Assembly: GCA_019118245.1 (NCBI GenBank)
Contig: DWZJ01000044.1
Location: 1-57,308 of the forward strand
Direction: 5' to 3'
Length of the DNA: 57,308 bases
Source: Candidatus Oscillibacter excrementigallinarum
GTDB lineage: Bacteria > Bacillota > Clostridia > Oscillospirales > Oscillospiraceae
Shown here piece by piece: positions 1-31,349 of the stretch (position 1 is the stretch's first letter; each line of letters starts with the position of its first letter). The notes beneath the pieces were generated by a model. The model searched no databases. It saw only the letters and a list, made by a program, of their open reading frames with translations, and was not told where the DNA came from. The position numbers and the translations under genes were made by a program.

Positions 1-1208
1 AGCAGCCGCACGGCGGTGGTCTTGTTGTTCACCATGCCGATGGCCGCCTCGTCGGCGATGATGGCGGAAATGGTCTCCGCCGGGGTGTCGCCGGGGACGG
101 CGATCATGTCCAGCCCCACGGAACAGACGCAGGTCATGGCCTCCAGCTTGTCCAGGCAGAGGGTCCCCGTCTCGGCGGCTGCGATCATGCCCTCGTCCTC
201 ACTGACGGGGATGAAGGCGCCGGAGAGGCCGCCCACGGAGGAGGACGCCATGACGCCGCCCTTCTTCACCGCGTCGTTCAGCAATGCCAGAGCCGCCGTG
301 GTGCCGTGGGTGCCGCAGACCTCCAGGCCCATCTCCTCCAGGATCCGGGCCACGCTGTCCCCGATGGCCGGGGTGGGCGCCAGGCTCAGATCCACGATGC
401 CGAAGGGGGTGTCCAGCCGGCGGCTGGCCTCCTGGGCCACCAGCTGGCCCATGCGGGTCACCCGGAAGGCGGTCTTTTTCACCGTCTCCGCCACCACGTC
501 AAAGGGCTGGCCCTTCACCGCTTTCAGGGCCGAACACACCACGCCGGGGCCGGAGACGCCCACGTTGATGACCTTCTCCGCCTCGCCCACGCCGTGGAAG
601 GCGCCGGCCATAAAGGGGTTGTCCTCCACGGCGTTGCAGAACACCACCAGCTTGGCGCAGCCCAGGCCGTCCCGGTCCGCGGTAGCTGCGGCGGTGTCCT
701 TGATGATGCGGCCCATGAGGGCCACCGCGTCCATGTTGATGCCCGCCCGGGTGGAGCCCACGTTGACGGAGGAGCACACCAGCTCCGTCCGGGCCAGCGC
801 CTCGGGAATGGAGCGGATCAGCTTCTCATCGGCCTTGGTCATGCCTTTCTGCACCAGGGCGGAGTAGCCGCCGATGAAGTTGACGCCGCAGGTCCGGGCC
901 GCCCGGTCCATAGCCAGGGCGAAGGGCACATAGTCCTCCGCCTCGCTGGCCCCGGCCACCAGGGCCATGGGGGTCACGGAGATCCGCTTGTTGACGATGG
1001 GAATGCCGAACTCCCGCTCGATATCCTCCCCGGTCTTGACCAGCTTCTCCGCATAGCGGGTGATTTTGTCGTAGATCTTCTCGCAGGCCCGCTTGGGGTC
1101 CGGATCGCAGCAGCTCAACAGGGAGATGCCCATGGTGATGGTGCGGATGTCCAGATGCTGCTGGTCGATCATCTCAATGGTGGATAAAATTTCCTTCTGG
1201 TTCAGCAT
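1..1208 (-). CDS. UPF0210 (PFL/DUF711) family protein, 3' end outside window
   Basis: The reverse strand is open from an ATG at 1208 (GGGAGAG ribosome site just upstream) to the window edge, giving about 402 residues of a family usually near 450, so the C-terminus is missing. The N-terminus reads [20 protein letters not shown], followed by [14 protein letters not shown] and [15 protein letters not shown], which are characteristic of UPF0210. The biochemical role of this family is not established. It is commonly encoded directly after a small UPF0237 ACT-domain protein, as here, and a role in amino-acid-responsive regulation is only an inference from that pairing. Confidence 0.88.
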
Positions 1209-24047: not shown

Positions 24048-24076
24048 TTGCATTTTAGCTGCTTGTCCGGTAAAAT
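24048..24076 (+). promoter_or_regulatory. Promoter of the ssnA leader
   Basis: TTGCAT (24048-24053), a 17-base spacer and TAAAAT (24071-24076) predict a transcript start near 24083, nine bases before the hairpin at 24092. Confidence 0.75.
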
Positions 24077-24091
24077 ACAAGTACAAGGGAA

Positions 24092-24197
24092 GAATGATAG
24101 CTGTAACGGAGTGCCGCGCGCACGGGCTGACACCTATCATTCCGGTCTTTTGATAGGTGTTTCAAGCCAAGGTCGGTTTGAAGCGCCTTTTCTTTTT
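24092..24197 (+). ncRNA. Candidate riboswitch (aptamer, antiterminator, terminator) in the ssnA leader
   Basis: Three helices can be read directly. P1 pairs GAATGATAG (24092-24100) with CTATCATTC (24134-24142), nine perfect pairs, enclosing TGT/ACA pairs, a 6x6 internal loop (AACGGA opposite GGGCTG) and P2 (GTGC 24111-24114 with GCAC 24120-24123). An antiterminator pairs ACACCTATC (24130-24138) with GATAGGTGT (24152-24160). A terminator pairs 24156-24168 with 24175-24187 (13 pairs including wobbles, 6-base loop), followed by TTTTCTTTTT. P1 and the antiterminator share CTATC; the antiterminator and terminator share GGTGT. A stabilised P1 would therefore favour termination. The aptamer class is not identified; size and shape recall small purine-sensing hairpins such as NMT1, unverified. 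Confidence 0.75.
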
Positions 24198-24234
24198 ACC
24201 GAACCATCAACAGGGACGAAAAGGAGGTCTTTTT

Positions 24235-25578
24235 ATGATTTTACTGGCAAACGGCAAGGTCATCACCCGGGACCCGGAGGGCGTGGGCTATCTGCCTGAC
24301 GGCGGCGTGGTCACCGACGGCGGCAAGATCGTGGAGGTGGGCGCCACCGCCGATCTGAAGGCCAAATACCCCCAGGCCGAGTTCGTGGACGCCCGGGGCG
24401 GCGTCATCATGCCGGGGCTCATCAACGCCCATACCCACATCTACTCCGCCCTGGCCCGGGGCCTCTCCATCGACGGGTACAACCCCACCAGCTTCTACGA
24501 GGTCCTGGACGGCCAGTGGTGGTACATCGACCGGAACCTGGATCTGGAGGCCACCAAGGCCAGCGCCCAGGCACTGGTGATCGACTCCATCAAGCAGGGC
24601 GTCACCACCATCTTCGACCACCACGCCAGCTTCTGCGAGATCCCCGGCTCCCTGATGAAGATTGCCGAGGTGACGAAGGAGTTCGGCATGCGGGCGTGCC
24701 TGTGCTATGAGGTCAGCGACCGGGACGGGGCGGAGAAGAGCCTCCAGTCCGTGCAGGAGAACAAGGACTTCATCGACTACTGCGAGCAGAACCCCAGCGA
24801 CATGCTGAAGGCCATGTTCGGCGGCCACGCCCTGTTCACCATCTCCGACAAGACCTTTGACCGGATGGTGGAGGCCAACAACGGCCGGGTGGGCTATCAC
24901 ATCCACGTGTCCGAGGGCATGAACGACGTGTACGACTCCCTCCAGAACTACGGCCGCCGGCCGGTCCAGCGGCTTCAGGACCACGGCATCCTGGGCTCCA
25001 AGACCATCCTGGGCCACTGCATCCATGTGAACACCGCCGAAATGGACATCATCAAGGCCACGGACACCATGTGCGTCAACAACCCCGAATCCAACATGGG
25101 CAACGCCGTGGGCATCTCCCCGGTGCTGCAGCTCTATCAGAAGGGCATCCTCATCGGCATGGGCACCGACGCCTACACCAACGATATGCTGGAGTCCATC
25201 AAGGTGGCTCTGTGCTCCCAGCGGCACAACGCCTGCATGCCCAACGTGGGCTGGTGTGAGGTGACGGATATGCTGTTCCGCAACAATGCCAAGATGGCGG
25301 AGCGCACCGGCTTCCCCACCCTGGGCGTGCTGAAGCCCGGCGCGGCGGCGGACGTGATCGTCATGGACTACAAGCCCTTCACCCCCTTCTCTGACGCCAA
25401 CATCGACGGACATATGCTCTTCGGCATGACCGGCCGTCAGTGCCAGACCACCATGATCAACGGCAGGATTTTGATGCGTGACCGCGTTCTCACGGAGATC
25501 GACGAGGAGGCCGTGAATGCCCACATTCTGGAGAGCAGCAAGCGGCTGTGGGGACGGTTGAACCATAAAGAGTATTGA
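24235..25578 (+). CDS. ssnA: Putative aminohydrolase SsnA
   Basis: The 447-residue amidohydrolase-superfamily protein is related to guanine deaminase/chlorohydrolase enzymes. Metal-site motifs are NAHTHIYSALARG, GHCIHVNTAEMD and GMGTDAYTNDM. SsnA is encoded in several bacteria beside ygfK and xanthine-dehydrogenase-like genes and has been linked to selenium-dependent hydroxylases and, in gut anaerobes, to purine breakdown; its substrate is not firmly known. The ATG at 24235 has AAGGAGGT eight bases upstream. A candidate riboswitch precedes it. ygfK follows on the same strand after 861 bases. Confidence 0.88.
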   Translation: MILLANGKVITRDPEGVGYLPDGGVVTDGGKIVEVGATADLKAKYPQAEFVDARGGVIMPGLINAHTHIYSALARGLSIDGYNPTSFYEVLDGQWWYIDRNLDLEATKASAQALVIDSIKQGVTTIFDHHASFCEIPGSLMKIAEVTKEFGMRACLCYEVSDRDGAEKSLQSVQENKDFIDYCEQNPSDMLKAMFGGHALFTISDKTFDRMVEANNGRVGYHIHVSEGMNDVYDSLQNYGRRPVQRLQDHGILGSKTILGHCIHVNTAEMDIIKATDTMCVNNPESNMGNAVGISPVLQLYQKGILIGMGTDAYTNDMLESIKVALCSQRHNACMPNVGWCEVTDMLFRNNAKMAERTGFPTLGVLKPGAAADVIVMDYKPFTPFSDANIDGHMLFGMTGRQCQTTMINGRILMRDRVLTEIDEEAVNAHILESSKRLWGRLNHKEY

Positions 25579-25635: not shown

Positions 25636-25662
25636 GTAGGGGCCGGCGCCCTCGCCGGCCCG
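25636..25662. repeat. REP-like palindrome, family A, copy 1
   Basis: The 27-base unit begins GTAGGGGCC and ends GGCCCG. GGGCCGGCG (25640-25648) pairs with CGCCGGCCC (25653-25661) around a CCCT loop. Copy 2 at 26013 differs only by paired, compensating changes. Confidence 0.75.
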
Positions 25663-25722
25663 CAGAGTGCCAGCCGTTTGGCTGGCGGATGACAGCTATG
25701 TTGATAGCTGGGCAATGCACCC

Positions 25723-25759
25723 CCCATTTTCTTTTCGGTCTTGCCGAAAAGAAAACGGG
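25723..25759. repeat. A/T-rich palindrome, family B, copy 1
   Basis: A 16-position stem with one mismatch: CCCATTTTCTTTTCGG (25723-25738) opposite the segment 25744-25759, with a 5-base loop. A related palindrome with the same TTTTCTTTT core is at 26254. Confidence 0.7.
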
Positions 25760-26012
25760 CCGTGCACGGTCCAAAAGAAAAGAACGCTTTTTGTCGCGCT
25801 CCGGCACGTACGTGCCTCCGCGCTGTACGGGGGTCGACGTGAGATGGTGCCTGCGGGTTTGCGAGGACCGACCGACGGGCGCGGCGGGGTACGGCGCGGA
25901 CTTGACGGCGGATTCCCGCGGCGCGGGTGCGGAGGGTATCGGGGTGCAAGGACGCATTTGACCAGCTCCTCTTTCCGCGCGTTCCGCTTCGCTACGCGCT
26001 GCCCTGGCGCTC

Positions 26013-26039
26013 GTAGGGGCCGATGCCCTCATCGGCCCG
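26013..26039. repeat. REP-like palindrome, family A, copy 2
   Basis: Same 27-base unit as 25636-25662, in the same orientation. GGGCCGATG pairs with CATCGGCCC around CCCT. The GGCG/CGCC of copy 1 is GATG/CATC here, keeping the stem intact. Confidence 0.75.
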
Positions 26040-26253
26040 TTGGGAAGCTTTCATCAACTACCAGGGGAGCGGCAGCGGGGAAAGAGGGACCAGGTATCTG
26101 GGACTTCCCCGGGCCAAAGGTTTCCCCAAGGGCAGCGCGTTTCCGTCCCTGACTGCCGCGCGGGATTGCCAACCATCCCCCGCCGGCGGCAGGAGGTCTG
26201 CGCTTGCGCAGACCGACCCGCCGAACATTTTTTCTTTTCCACCGGGCGCGGCG

Positions 26254-26285
26254 CATTTTCTTTTTGATGTCTCAAAAAGAAAATG
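26254..26285. repeat. A/T-rich palindrome, family B, copy 2
   Basis: CATTTTCTTTTTGA (26254-26267) pairs perfectly with TCAAAAAGAAAATG (26272-26285) around a TGTC loop. Confidence 0.7.
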
Positions 26286-26439
26286 GGGGGGCGCATCCCG
26301 CATGGACAATGCCCCTGCGGGAGCAGAAGTCCCGTGGCCGCCGCCCGGCGGCCCAACACCCCCTCTGGGAGCGTGCTGTGCCAACCATGTCAGAAGCACC
26401 CCCAGAGCTTACAAGGAGTTCTTTTGAGGAGGAAATATC

Positions 26440-29391
26440 ATGTCTGAGTTAATGACCCCCATCCCCTTCCGGGAATTGATGACCTGGATCACCACCGAAT
26501 ACCAGCGGGACGGCACCGTGTTCGGTGTCCACCGCCCCTACAAGGCCGGCGTGAAGAAGCTCCCCATCTTCGGGGAGGCCATCGAGACGCCCTTCGGCCC
26601 CGCCGCCGGTCCCAACACCCAGCTGGCCCAGAACATCATCGCCAGCTACTTCGCCGGCGCCCGGTTCTTTGAGCTGAAAACCGTCCAGAAGGTGGACGGC
26701 GCCGACCTGGCTGCCTGCATCAACCGCCCCTGCATCCTGGCGGAGGACGAGTGCTACAACTGCGAGTGGTCCACAGAGCTGTATGTCCAGCAGGCCTTTG
26801 ATGAGTACGTGAAGGCCTGGTGCGCCCTGAAGCTCATGTCCAAGGTCTACGGCCTGGGCGACCCCAACGGGTTCGTGTTCAATATGTCCGTGGGCTATGA
26901 CCTGGCGGGCATCCAGGGAGAAAAGATCGACACCTTCCTGAACGGCATGGTGGACGCCTCCAAGACCCCCATCTTCCAGGAGTGCATCGCCGTTTTGAAG
27001 GAGTTCTTCCCCGGCGAGGCCGCCTATATCGACACCATCACCCCCCACGTCTCCGGGTCCGTCACGGTATCCACCCTCCACGGCTGCCCGCCGGACGAGA
27101 TCGAGCGGATCGCCAGCTACCTGCTGGAGAAGAAGCACCTGCACACCTTCGTCAAGTGCAATCCCACCATCCTGGGGTACGAGACCGCCCGGTCCATTCT
27201 GGACTCCATGGGCTACGACTATATCGCCTTTGACGACCACCACTTCCAGGAGGACCTGCAGTATGCCGACGCGGTGCCCATGTTCCACCGGCTCCAGGCC
27301 CTGGCGGACAAGGAGGGCCTGGAATTCGGCCTGAAGCTCTCCAACACCTTCCCGGTGGACGTGAAGGCCGGGGAGCTGCCCAGCGCCGAGATGTACATGG
27401 CGGGCAAGTCCCTGTTCCCCCTGACCACCACCATGGCCGCCATGATCTCCAAGGAGTTCGGCGGCAGGATGCGCCTCTCTTACGCCGGCGGCGCCGACGC
27501 CTTCAATGTGGACAAGCTGTTCTCCTGCGGCATCTGGCCCATCACCATGGCCACCACGGAGCTGAAGCCCGGCGGCTACCAGCGGTTCACTCAGATCGGC
27601 GACAAGCTGGATGCTCTGGACTTCAAGCCCTTCCAGGGCGTGGATGTCACCGCCATCGAGGCGCTGGCCCAGGCGGCCCGGTCCGACAAGTACCATGTGA
27701 AGGCCATCAAGCCCCTGCCCCGGCGCAAGCTCTATGAGAAGGTCCCCCTGGTGGACTGCTTCACCGCCCCCTGCAAGGACGGCTGCCCCATCCATCAGGA
27801 CATCCCGGAGTATATCGAGCTGTGCCGGAAGGGCGCGTACGCCTCCGCTCTGCGGCTCATCACCGAGAAGAACCCCCTGCCCTTCATCACCGGCACCATC
27901 TGCGCCCACAACTGCATGACAAAGTGCATGCGCAACTACTACGACGAGCCGGTGAACATCCGGGCCACCAAGCTGGTGGCGGCGGAGCGGGGCTATGACG
28001 CTTACATGGCCAAGCTCACGCCTCCCGTGCCGGTGACCGACGGCCGGAAGGTGGCCGTCATCGGCGGCGGCCCCACCGGTATGGCCGCGGCCTACTTCGT
28101 GGGCCGGGCGGGCATCCCCGTCACCATCTTCGAGCGGTCCGGCGTCCTGGGCGGCGTGGTCCGGCAGGTGATCCCCGCCTTCCGCATCAGCGACGACGCC
28201 ATCGACCACGACGTGGCACTGCTGTTCAAGATGGGCGTGGACGTGAAGCTGAACACCGAGGCCCCCTCCGTGGAGGAGCTGAAGGCCCAGGGCTACACCC
28301 ACATCTTCTTTGCCGTGGGCGCCTGGAAGGCCGGGAAGCTGGACATCCCCGGCAACGTGGTGCCGGTCATCGGCTGGCTGAAGGACATGAAGGCGGGCAA
28401 GGACGTGTCCCTGGGCCACGTGGCCGTGGTGGGCGGCGGCAACACCGCCATGGACGCCGCCCGGGCCGCCCTGCGGGCTGGAGCGCAGTCCAGCACCCTG
28501 GTGTACCGCCGGACCAAGAAGTATATGCCCGCCGACGCGGAGGAGCTGGAGATGGCCATCGCCGACGGTGTTCAGTTCCTGGAGCTGGTGGCTCCCGTGG
28601 AGCAGAAGGACGGCAAGCTGGTCTGTGAGAGGATGAAGCTGGGCGACCCGGACGAGAAGGGCCGCCGGAAGCCCGTCCCCACCGGCGAGATGGTGGAGAT
28701 CCCCTGTGACACCGTGGTCTCCGCCGTGGGCGAGCGGGTGGAGAGCGAGGTCTTTACCCGCAACGGCATCACCGTGGACGAGAAGGGCATTCCGGACTTC
28801 AAGACCAACCTGGAGGGCGTCTACGCCGGCGGCGACGCCATGCGGGGCCCCGCCACCGTGGTGGAGGGCATCGCCGACGCCCAGTATTTCGCCAATGCCG
28901 TCATCGGTGAGGCCCACACCTTCGCCATCCCCGGCAAGGCCATGGCCACCCGGGAGGAGGCCATCGCCAAGAAGGGCATCCTCTGCGAGAGCGCCAAGTG
29001 CGAGGGCGACCGCTGCCTGACCTGCAACGTGGTGTGCCAGGTCTGCGCCGACGTGTGCCCCAACCGGGCCAATGTGGTGGTCCTGCTGCCGGACGGCCGT
29101 CCCCAGATCCTCCATGTGGACCGGATGTGCAACGAGTGCGGCAACTGCGCCGTGTTCTGTCCCTATGACTCCGCCCCCTACCGGGATAAGTTCACCCTGT
29201 TCCAGACCCGCGAGGGCTTTGACGAGAGCGTGAACAACCAGGGCTTCCTGCCCCTGGGCGGCAAGAAGGTCCTGGTGCGCCTGAACGGCAAGGTGTTCGA
29301 GGCGGACCTGGAAGGCAAGAACGACCTGCCCGCAGATGTGGAGGTGTTCATCTGGACGGTGCTGACCAAGTACGCCTATCTGATGGGATAA
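26440..29391 (+). CDS. ygfK: YgfK, putative selenate reductase / NADPH-dependent iron-sulfur flavoprotein subunit
   Basis: The 983-residue protein has an N-terminal dihydroorotate-dehydrogenase-like barrel (about 1-400), a cysteine motif near 441 (CTAPCKDGCPIHQDIP) of the glutamate-synthase small-subunit type, an FAD site at about 538-560 (VAVIGGGPTGMAAAYF), an NAD(P) site near 661 (VAVVGGGNTAMDAARA), and C-terminal ferredoxin clusters at about 852-915 (CLTCNVVCQVCADVCPN and CNECGNCAVFCP). It probably passes electrons between NAD(P)H and a molybdenum hydroxylase. It is known to neighbour ssnA; no molybdenum hydroxylase gene is in the window. The ATG has GAGGAGG upstream. Confidence 0.93.
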   Translation: MSELMTPIPFRELMTWITTEYQRDGTVFGVHRPYKAGVKKLPIFGEAIETPFGPAAGPNTQLAQNIIASYFAGARFFELKTVQKVDGADLAACINRPCILAEDECYNCEWSTELYVQQAFDEYVKAWCALKLMSKVYGLGDPNGFVFNMSVGYDLAGIQGEKIDTFLNGMVDASKTPIFQECIAVLKEFFPGEAAYIDTITPHVSGSVTVSTLHGCPPDEIERIASYLLEKKHLHTFVKCNPTILGYETARSILDSMGYDYIAFDDHHFQEDLQYADAVPMFHRLQALADKEGLEFGLKLSNTFPVDVKAGELPSAEMYMAGKSLFPLTTTMAAMISKEFGGRMRLSYAGGADAFNVDKLFSCGIWPITMATTELKPGGYQRFTQIGDKLDALDFKPFQGVDVTAIEALAQAARSDKYHVKAIKPLPRRKLYEKVPLVDCFTAPCKDGCPIHQDIPEYIELCRKGAYASALRLITEKNPLPFITGTICAHNCMTKCMRNYYDEPVNIRATKLVAAERGYDAYMAKLTPPVPVTDGRKVAVIGGGPTGMAAAYFVGRAGIPVTIFERSGVLGGVVRQVIPAFRISDDAIDHDVALLFKMGVDVKLNTEAPSVEELKAQGYTHIFFAVGAWKAGKLDIPGNVVPVIGWLKDMKAGKDVSLGHVAVVGGGNTAMDAARAALRAGAQSSTLVYRRTKKYMPADAEELEMAIADGVQFLELVAPVEQKDGKLVCERMKLGDPDEKGRRKPVPTGEMVEIPCDTVVSAVGERVESEVFTRNGITVDEKGIPDFKTNLEGVYAGGDAMRGPATVVEGIADAQYFANAVIGEAHTFAIPGKAMATREEAIAKKGILCESAKCEGDRCLTCNVVCQVCADVCPNRANVVVLLPDGRPQILHVDRMCNECGNCAVFCPYDSAPYRDKFTLFQTREGFDESVNNQGFLPLGGKKVLVRLNGKVFEADLEGKNDLPADVEVFIWTVLTKYAYLMG

Positions 29392-30442: not shown

Positions 30443-31324
30443 TCACCGGGCCGCGATCTCCTCCCGGACCACCTGGAGCGCCCGCTGCATCCCGTCAGTC
30501 AGGTACTTGCTCCGGTGCCGCACCAGGAAGTAGGTCCGGCGGAAGGCACCGTCCGCCACCGCCAGTTCCCGCAGCCTGCCGGCGGACAGGTCCGCCTCCA
30601 CCAGGGACCGGGGCAGCAGGGTGATCCCCAGCCCCGCCCGGGTGCAGGACAGCAGCGCCCCGGTGCTGACGCTCTCCAGCACCGGCCGCACCGGGATCCC
30701 CGCCGCCTGGAACACCCCGTCCACGCTGTTCCGGGTGCCGCTGCCCCGCTCCCGCAGCAGCAGCCGCTCCCCCGCCAGCTCCGCCAGGGTCAGCGTGTCC
30801 CGGCCTGACAGGTACTCCGGCGCGCACACCGCCGCCAGGGCCTCCTCCCGCAGGGGCTCCACCAGATAGTGGGGGGACACCGTGACATTGTCCACCACCG
30901 CGAAGTCCAGCTCGTTCTGCAGGATCATCCGCTCCGTCTCCCGGGAGTTCTGGACGCAGGCCCGGACCTGCATCTCCGGCAGCTCCGCCGCCAGCCGGGC
31001 CAGGATGCCCGCCAGGCAGGTCTCCCCCAGGGTCACATGGACGCCGAAGCTGCAAGATCCCCCGGCCCCGCTCTCCCGCAGGACCTCCACCGACTCCCGG
31101 AACTGGGACAGCACCGTGTCCGCGTACTGCCGCAGGTTCCGTCCCGCCTCCGTGAGATACACCCGGCGGTTCATCCGCTCGAACAGCCGCACGGCGTAAA
31201 AGGTCTCCAGCTCCCGGATGGCCAGGCTCACCGCCGGCTGGGCCATATTCAGCTTCTCCGCCGCCCGGGTGAAGCTCCCCTGGGTGCAGACAGCGGCGAA
31301 GATCTCCAGATGCCGCAGCGTCAT
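30443..31324 (-). CDS. LysR-family transcriptional regulator
   Basis: The 293-residue protein has an N-terminal winged helix (MTLRHLEIFAAVCTQGSFTR, AAEKLNMAQPAVSLAIRELE) and a periplasmic-binding-like effector domain with SVSTGALLSCTRAGLGITLLP near the C-terminus. It is divergent from the chromate-transporter pair, with an inverted repeat between them at 31350-31378, so it most likely controls those genes and itself. The ATG at 31324 is supported by AAAGGAGGG; the frame is open much further upstream but runs into the operator region. The inducer is unknown. Confidence 0.92.
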   Translation of the reverse strand: MTLRHLEIFAAVCTQGSFTRAAEKLNMAQPAVSLAIRELETFYAVRLFERMNRRVYLTEAGRNLRQYADTVLSQFRESVEVLRESGAGGSCSFGVHVTLGETCLAGILARLAAELPEMQVRACVQNSRETERMILQNELDFAVVDNVTVSPHYLVEPLREEALAAVCAPEYLSGRDTLTLAELAGERLLLRERGSGTRNSVDGVFQAAGIPVRPVLESVSTGALLSCTRAGLGITLLPRSLVEADLSAGRLRELAVADGAFRRTYFLVRHRSKYLTDGMQRALQVVREEIAAR

Positions 31325-31349
31325 GCTCCGCCCTCCTTTCATAATATTT

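Follow-up and report, generated by a model that had tools for sequence, protein, structure and literature searches.

Purine riboswitches of the guanine, adenine and xanthine-variant types lie before purine-related genes and use attenuator platforms, and their aptamer is a three-way junction with loop-loop contacts. The ssnA RNA was reportedly described by Weinberg and colleagues in 2017. In Rfam it is family RF03031, a cis-regulatory element without a ligand name, that is, an orphan. NMT1 (xanthine-I) RNAs are reported to bind xanthine and, less tightly, urate, and share with the ssnA RNA a small hairpin, a conserved internal junction and a context of purine oxidation (PMC7373994, PMC8266621). 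The reported NMT1 aptamer has two internal junctions and a long-range J1-J2 pair (PMC8266621), whereas in the ssnA consensus, judged on secondary structure alone, a lone G faces one joining strand of 8 nt. NMT1 RNAs are also reported from proteobacteria, as likely translational OFF switches, and the ssnA RNA differs in this too.

In a 2025 report, SsnA and YgfK convert yanthine (2,8-dioxopurine) to ureidomethyl-hydantoin, which supersedes the view of an earlier, sequence-only reading of our locus that the substrate of ssnA was uncertain; yanthine is made from urate by XdhD, and HyuA opens ureidomethyl-hydantoin (PMC12507026). Both ssnA and ygfK are reported among the urate-induced genes common to gut bacteria (PMC12990295). 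An orphan riboswitch candidate is thus tied to a defined pathway with chemistry reported in 2025, and the list of ligands therefore shrinks to a handful of compounds. If confirmed, the switch would explain how gut bacteria sense purines of the urate pathway, which bears on gout and urate-lowering microbes, and among purine switches it would be one that activates degradation instead of shutting it down. Our literature search returned nothing on the ssnA motif, RNA or riboswitch (one term match concerns single-stranded nucleic acids by title), and a search for a urate or uric acid riboswitch by name found none.

The window, the whole stretch of DNA that was analysed, is 57,308 nt long and comes from Candidatus Oscillibacter excrementigallinarum (GCA_019118245.1, contig DWZJ01000044.1, forward strand). 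The sequence-only reading had compared the hairpin before ssnA to NMT1, held that the aptamer may be new, and proposed a covariance search against Rfam. That search, which covered 4227 models, returned RF03031 at 24091-24138 with E 6.3e-15, the sole family above its gathering score in the whole window (62.2 against 37.3 bits); the aptamer thus belongs to a known orphan family. We take the NMT1 model to be among those searched. Between 24000 and 24260, at E up to 10, the only match besides RF03031 was to one mir-208 model, at the chance level of E 2.3. Membership of NMT1/xanthine-I was rejected on this ground, and the purine riboswitches (guanine, adenine and xanthine variant) likewise gave no match there. 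The features of the locus are as follows.

24048 to 24076, + strand: promoter, with -35 TTGCAT at 24048-24053, a 17-nt spacer and -10 TAAAAT at 24071-24076 (sequence and relatives).
24091 to 24138, + strand: ssnA RNA (RF03031), candidate aptamer, 48 nt (Rfam match and alignment).
24092 to 24142, + strand: outer hairpin, 24092-24100 with 24134-24142, called P1 in the sequence-only reading (sequence, folding and relatives).
24098 to 24102, + strand: 5' strand of aptamer P1, holding the invariant U of a U-G wobble (pair counts in 151 distinct sequences).
24103 to 24110, + strand: joining strand between P1 and P2 (151 distinct sequences).
24111 to 24123, + strand: aptamer P2, 24111-24114 with 24120-24123, loop 24115-24119 (151 distinct sequences).
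24125 to 24129, + strand: 3' strand of aptamer P1, pairing with 24098-24102 (pair counts in 151 distinct sequences).
24130 to 24160, + strand: antiterminator, 24130-24139 with 24151-24160, 10 bp (sequence and folding).
24155 to 24197, + strand: intrinsic terminator, 24155-24168 with 24175-24188, U-tract 24188-24197 (sequence and scan).
24222 to 24227, + strand: ribosome-binding site AGGAGG (sequence).
24235 to 25578, + strand: ssnA, encoding an aminohydrolase in the reductive degradation of urate (yanthine) (618 bits to NCBIfam NF005540 and 544 bits to TIGR03314, each above its cut-off).
26440 to 29391, + strand: ygfK, encoding the reductase partner of SsnA (1304 bits to NCBIfam TIGR03315, above its cut-off).

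The element matches RF03031 in sequence, in its P1/P2 architecture and in its place before ssnA, where the family is expected, and we found no difference in the core; all consensus P1 and P2 pairs form in the window leader. Beyond the core, what may be added here is the outer alternative hairpin of this leader type, the likely ON polarity, and hyuA and nfnAB as targets.

The ssnA leader resembles a riboswitch of the attenuation type, in which alternative helices and a terminator follow a credible promoter. Much of the earlier anatomy was borne out, including its attenuation type, and loop bases and pairs are kept in relatives. The outer hairpin was confirmed base by base as GAAUGAUAG/CUAUCAUUC, 9 bp. 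The antiterminator does have nine perfect pairs (24130-24138 with 24152-24160), to which 24139-24151 adds a tenth. The terminator (24156-24168 with 24175-24187) has 13 pairs, three of them G-U, plus A24155-U24188, and is followed by TTTTCTTTTT (24188-24197); a consensus terminator scan also detected it. The bases shared between the hairpin and the antiterminator, and between the antiterminator and the terminator, are those that had been named. Such a design had been called hard to get by chance, and the numbers agree: the leader (24083-24200) folds at -45.9 kcal/mol (z -3.81; 0 of 200 dinucleotide shuffles were as good), beside the E 6.3e-15 of the Rfam match.

The promoter had been described as good. 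A promoter consensus scan found no + strand site because the -35 hexamer, TTGCAT, is weak. The pattern TTGNNN-15..19-TANNNT, with at least 7 of 12 positions matching, is present in 79 of 81 distinct upstreams of window-type leaders, and the -10 ends at exactly the window's distance from the aptamer in 49 of the 81; any such site appeared in 168 of 1620 mononucleotide shuffles. The promoter, and a transcription start expected near 24083, are therefore credible from these comparisons. The transcript's 5' end (24083-24090) carries, by eye, an ACAAUC-like stretch that is frequent in window-type leaders and adjoins the outer hairpin.

To define the core, 85 first loci (the window's included) gave 79 that were parsed; five were left out as weak (L018, L045, L046, L083, L085) and one as partial (L084). 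A core-pattern scan of contigs gave at least 120 more, 113 of which were kept; the seven dropped (L139, L188, L191, L202, L226, L232, L235) belong by title to other phyla and are without ssnA, and some chance matches are expected. The resulting 192 loci comprise 151 distinct sequences, which are distinct rows rather than independent events; many pattern-scan records are the same genomes as the profile-search loci. Model positions 13, 15, 16, 18 and 20 of the joining strand are G, A, A, G and A in 151/151, and G24124 (position 34), just 3' of P2, is equally invariant. P1 pairs 9-12/35-38 show one mismatch in 604 cells. Pair 9-38 is A-U in 104 sequences, G-U in 34, G-C in 11, U-A in one and mismatched in one; pair 10-37 is G-C in 150 and A-U in one; pair 11-36 is C-G in 150 and U-G in one. 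The pair that closes the P2 loop (24-30) is C-G in 137, U-A in 11 and U-G in three. Pair 8-39 is a standard pair in just 113 of 151. Because the pairs are kept with compensatory changes, 24098-24102/24125-24129 is, by comparison, the aptamer P1, a role that the sequence-only reading had given to the outer hairpin. That reading had expected homologous leaders to keep conserved loop bases and covarying pairs, and the relatives keep both. Pair 12-35 (U24102-G24125 in the window) is a U-G wobble in all 151; this is unusual for a plain helix, and the wobble is possibly part of the pocket.

The outer hairpin is present in 78 of the 151 distinct sequences, which make up the window's type. Beyond the three pairs shared with P1, 399 of 468 cells are paired, against a shuffle mean of 379.2 (sd 2.2, maximum 388). 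In the right register 0.90 of the cells are paired, versus 0.24-0.55 when the strands are slid, and at position 4 the pair forms in 30 of 78 only. By these counts the outer hairpin is real and covaries modestly. Both it and P1 need 24098-24100, so the two are mutually exclusive alternatives, and we read the outer hairpin as the ligand-free state that excludes aptamer P1. Aptamer and platform exclude each other, as in metabolite riboswitches, in the window and its leader type; among leaders of the other type, such exclusion is strong in 28 of 66 and absent in 15 of 66.

Forty-four window-type leaders, one per locus and not all distinct, were folded free, with P1 and P2 held, or with the outer hairpin held; for L007, L017, L043, L048 and L066 the terminator was chosen manually. 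In the transcript that ends before the 3' arm of the terminator, the mean antiterminator probability was 0.89 with P1 and P2 held, 0.32 with the outer hairpin held and 0.73 free. It was numerically higher with P1 in 44/44, the values being equal to two decimals in L004 (0.99) and L021 (0.00); for L004 and L033 the script had picked an antiterminator without overlap to the outer hairpin. At full length, the terminator base had a mean probability of 0.84 free, 0.61 with P1 held and 0.90 with the outer hairpin held. With P1 as against the outer hairpin, it was lower in 39 of the 44 leaders, equal within 0.01 in five and higher in none. In the window these full-length values were 0.97, 0.89 and 0.97, respectively, the terminator still dominating with P1 held.

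The growing window chain was followed by minimum-energy folds, begun at 24087 and extended in steps of 4. P1 forms with chain ends at 24130-24134 and the outer hairpin at 24138-24158. P1 and the antiterminator stand together at 24162-24166 and at 24182, the antiterminator stands without P1 at 24170-24178, and from 24186 on the outer hairpin is combined with the terminator. Folding thus predicts two main global states, one that combines P1 and the antiterminator and one that combines the outer hairpin and the terminator. P1 being part of the aptamer, ligand binding should favour read-through.

In the early window transcript, holding P1 costs 8.9 kcal/mol over the free ensemble and holding the outer hairpin 0.2, which leaves much of the work to ligand energy or kinetics. 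In the window's free ensemble before the terminator's 3' arm, the antiterminator already has a probability of 0.96; this modelled preference alone would suit a default-ON, ligand-OFF switch. Given this and the cost of P1, the folding calculation alone leaves the window's polarity unsettled. The sequence-only reading had the ligand stop transcription of ssnA; comparative and folding evidence together point, short of proof, to the reverse.

Leaders lacking the outer hairpin also bear on polarity. These number 75 among 156 distinct leaders, a set drawn by a separate criterion from the 151, and their terminators were picked automatically, with some doubtful picks (e.g., L016, L067). The script found a terminator in 66 of the 75 and none in nine, three of which (L057, L066, L158) have a U-rich hairpin by eye. 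On adding the terminator's 3' arm, the cost of P1 and P2 rose by at least 5 kcal/mol in 28 of 66 leaders and by 0.5-5 in 23, changed by at most 0.5 in 8 and dropped by more than 0.5 in 7. The terminator is built from the aptamer's 3' strand in L014, L056, L058, L072 and L076 and from its 5' strand in L015 and L077; in L011, L206 and L212 pairings other than the terminator arms account for the strong rise. Leaders with a terminator of aptamer strands should be ON switches, provided that the aptamer binds a ligand.

In the G638 group, which we call Intestinimonas, the cost of the aptamer with the complete terminator rises by 13-15 kcal/mol in three hyuA leaders and three nfnAB-like leaders; four nfnAB-like leaders had been submitted, and L317 went unscored as the script found no terminator. 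In L077, an nfnAB-like leader, the cost goes from 2.5 to 14.5 kcal/mol. In four ssnA leaders of the group the change is -0.4, -0.5, -1.1 and -2.5 kcal/mol, and in L062, L316, L318, L323 and L325, all ssnA leaders, the terminator abuts the aptamer without overlap, so ligand coupling there is unexplained. A minority of leaders does not fit a simple ON mechanism.

Some further arrangements were seen around these leaders. Tandem ssnA RNAs about 165-170 nt apart occur in three genomes of one genus (L015/L019 in G311, and in G1068 and G1169), and in G311 a terminator-like hairpin of its own stands after each RNA. A regulator-like gene (cluster c3, 19 of 85 loci), whose protein has no NCBIfam match, lies upstream of leaders without the outer hairpin (e.g., L010, L068), and an upstream permease, NCS2-type by eye, forms cluster c6 (6 of 85 loci).

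With E values up to 0.001, RF03031 was found in 18 of the 394 genomes searched from the order, 16 of them over cut-off. For the family the figures are 78 of 300 (71 of them over cut-off), for the phylum sample 4 of 398, the window's own genome among them (2 over cut-off), for the family of G311 8 of 148 (7 over cut-off), and for the genus of G638 8 of 11; searches over 40 genomes used stricter filters, with weak matches lost. The at least 120 core-pattern loci are mostly Oscillospiraceae by title, and the matches listed include Flavonifractor plautii ATCC 29863, Oscillibacter valericigenes An860 and Intestinimonas bins; one core-pattern scan of viral contigs gave 0 matches. The ssnA gene itself is over its curated cut-off in 19 of 295 genomes of the order sample. 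Nine of these are in the window's family, all with RF03031. The ten without it come from family f13 (nine) and f23 (one), and their ssnA loci gave a single Rfam match at E up to 1, to a snoRNA model below its gathering score.

Among the matches listed, ssnA lies at most 700 nt downstream in 105 of 120 pattern loci. The remaining 15 are seven from other phyla, five in which the end is too close, and L145, L170 and L221. L145 precedes hyuA and L170 an nfnAB-like operon, neither being independent of L319 and L077, and the target of L221 is by eye a fragment of a short-chain dehydrogenase and probably a relic. In the G638 group, which also has the RNA before ssnA-ygfK, it precedes hyuA in 3 of 11 genomes (G1043, G1046 and G1048; L315, L319 and L321) and an nfnAB-like operon in 5 of 11 (G1043, G1046, G1048, G1045 and G638; L317, L320, L322, L324 and L077), L320 scoring 36.8 bits, just under the gathering score. 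With 160 bits to D-hydantoinase TIGR02033, the hyuA fragment stays below a cut-off that is meant for a whole protein. In the other operon, the name that NCBIfam gives to the first protein is sulfide/dihydroorotate dehydrogenase-like FAD/NAD-binding protein; that it is NfnAB and supplies electrons is our assumption.

Sequence and comparison show the motif, the target genes, and two helix sets that exclude each other; from these we infer that a small molecule would bind the aptamer, that binding would hold P1, and what the polarity and the ligand would be. On balance the leader is probably, if only just, a transcription-terminating ON riboswitch of the orphan ssnA RNA class whose ligand is most likely urate or yanthine. 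With no ligand, 24092-24100 would pair with 24134-24142 and make the antiterminator's 5' arm inaccessible; the terminator at 24155-24188 would form, and ssnA (and ygfK) would stay off. With ligand bound, P1 and P2 (24098-24129) would be held, 24098-24100 would be occupied and the outer hairpin blocked. The strand 24130-24139 would then be free to pair with 24151-24160, the terminator would be blocked and the genes read. Urate or yanthine, when present, would in this way switch on its own reductive pathway.

The sequence-only scheme has the outer hairpin, with its large internal loop, bind the ligand and sequester 24134-24138, so that the terminator forms and ssnA is OFF. In the window the outer hairpin is indeed the most stable early fold, costing 0.2 kcal/mol where P1 costs 8.9. 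Its covariation is modest (399 of 468 cells against a shuffle maximum of 388), and the antiterminator preference of the free pre-terminator ensemble (0.96) makes a default-ON state plausible. However, P2, P1 pairs 9-12/35-38 and the joining bases are kept throughout, and the outer hairpin only in 78 of 151 sequences. Many leaders without it build their terminator from aptamer strands, a design hardly usable for a ligand-OFF switch, and shutting off by substrate makes little sense for a catabolic pathway reported as urate-induced (PMC12990295). We judge the OFF scheme improbable. A still smaller chance goes to an attenuator of another kind, in which a protein or other regulator recognises the conserved hairpin and no metabolite is bound. 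The lack of a known ligand, the small size of the motif (48 nt) and the ACAAUC-like stretch often found at the 5' end of window-type transcripts would suit it, but joining bases invariant in 151/151 sequences and the use, within one group, of a different platform before each of three operons resemble metabolite aptamers.

The ON switch could also answer to another ligand: xanthine, guanine, 8-oxopurines, ureidomethyl-hydantoin, diureidopropionate or a molybdenum-cofactor species. NMT1 RNA is reported to bind xanthine tighter than urate (PMC8266621), and at L145 a MocA-like gene (partial sequence; TIGR03310 at 107.7 bits, cut-off 186) comes after hyuA. Against this, extra copies in the sampled genomes, save the relic-like L221, precede ssnA, hyuA or nfnAB-like genes, whose enzymes act from the yanthine step onward or plausibly feed that step, and we regard another ligand as doubtful. 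With recurrent targets at or after the yanthine step or in its likely electron supply, urate or yanthine is the most economical ligand for the ON switch, and gene context would make one of them the most likely. A narrower proposal, which we offer tentatively and likewise regard as doubtful, is that the ssnA RNA is an ON riboswitch for yanthine, with the U-G wobble in its pocket, whose regulon of ssnA-ygfK, hyuA and nfnAB dearomatises urate in gut Oscillospiraceae. We know of no riboswitch that senses yanthine. The wobble U24102-G24125 is likened here to the G-U pair that NMT1 is reported to open around xanthine (PMC8266621).

Other contigs of the window's genome carry a D-hydantoinase and ygeW, both over cut-off, xanthine-dehydrogenase-family genes below the TIGR03313 cut-off, and a gene 87% identical to the L014 gene, by eye a diaminopropionate ammonia-lyase. 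Beyond ygfK, at 30443-31336, lies a LysR regulator (147.7 bits to 'selenium metabolism-associated LysR', cut-off 250). In the gap between ssnA and ygfK (25640-26380) lies a mosaic, dispersed repeat that reaches about 740 nt and contains inverted CCCCCCATTTTCTTTT segments; 136 pieces matching it lie on many contigs of the same genome, and this repeat may uncouple ygfK from the switch.
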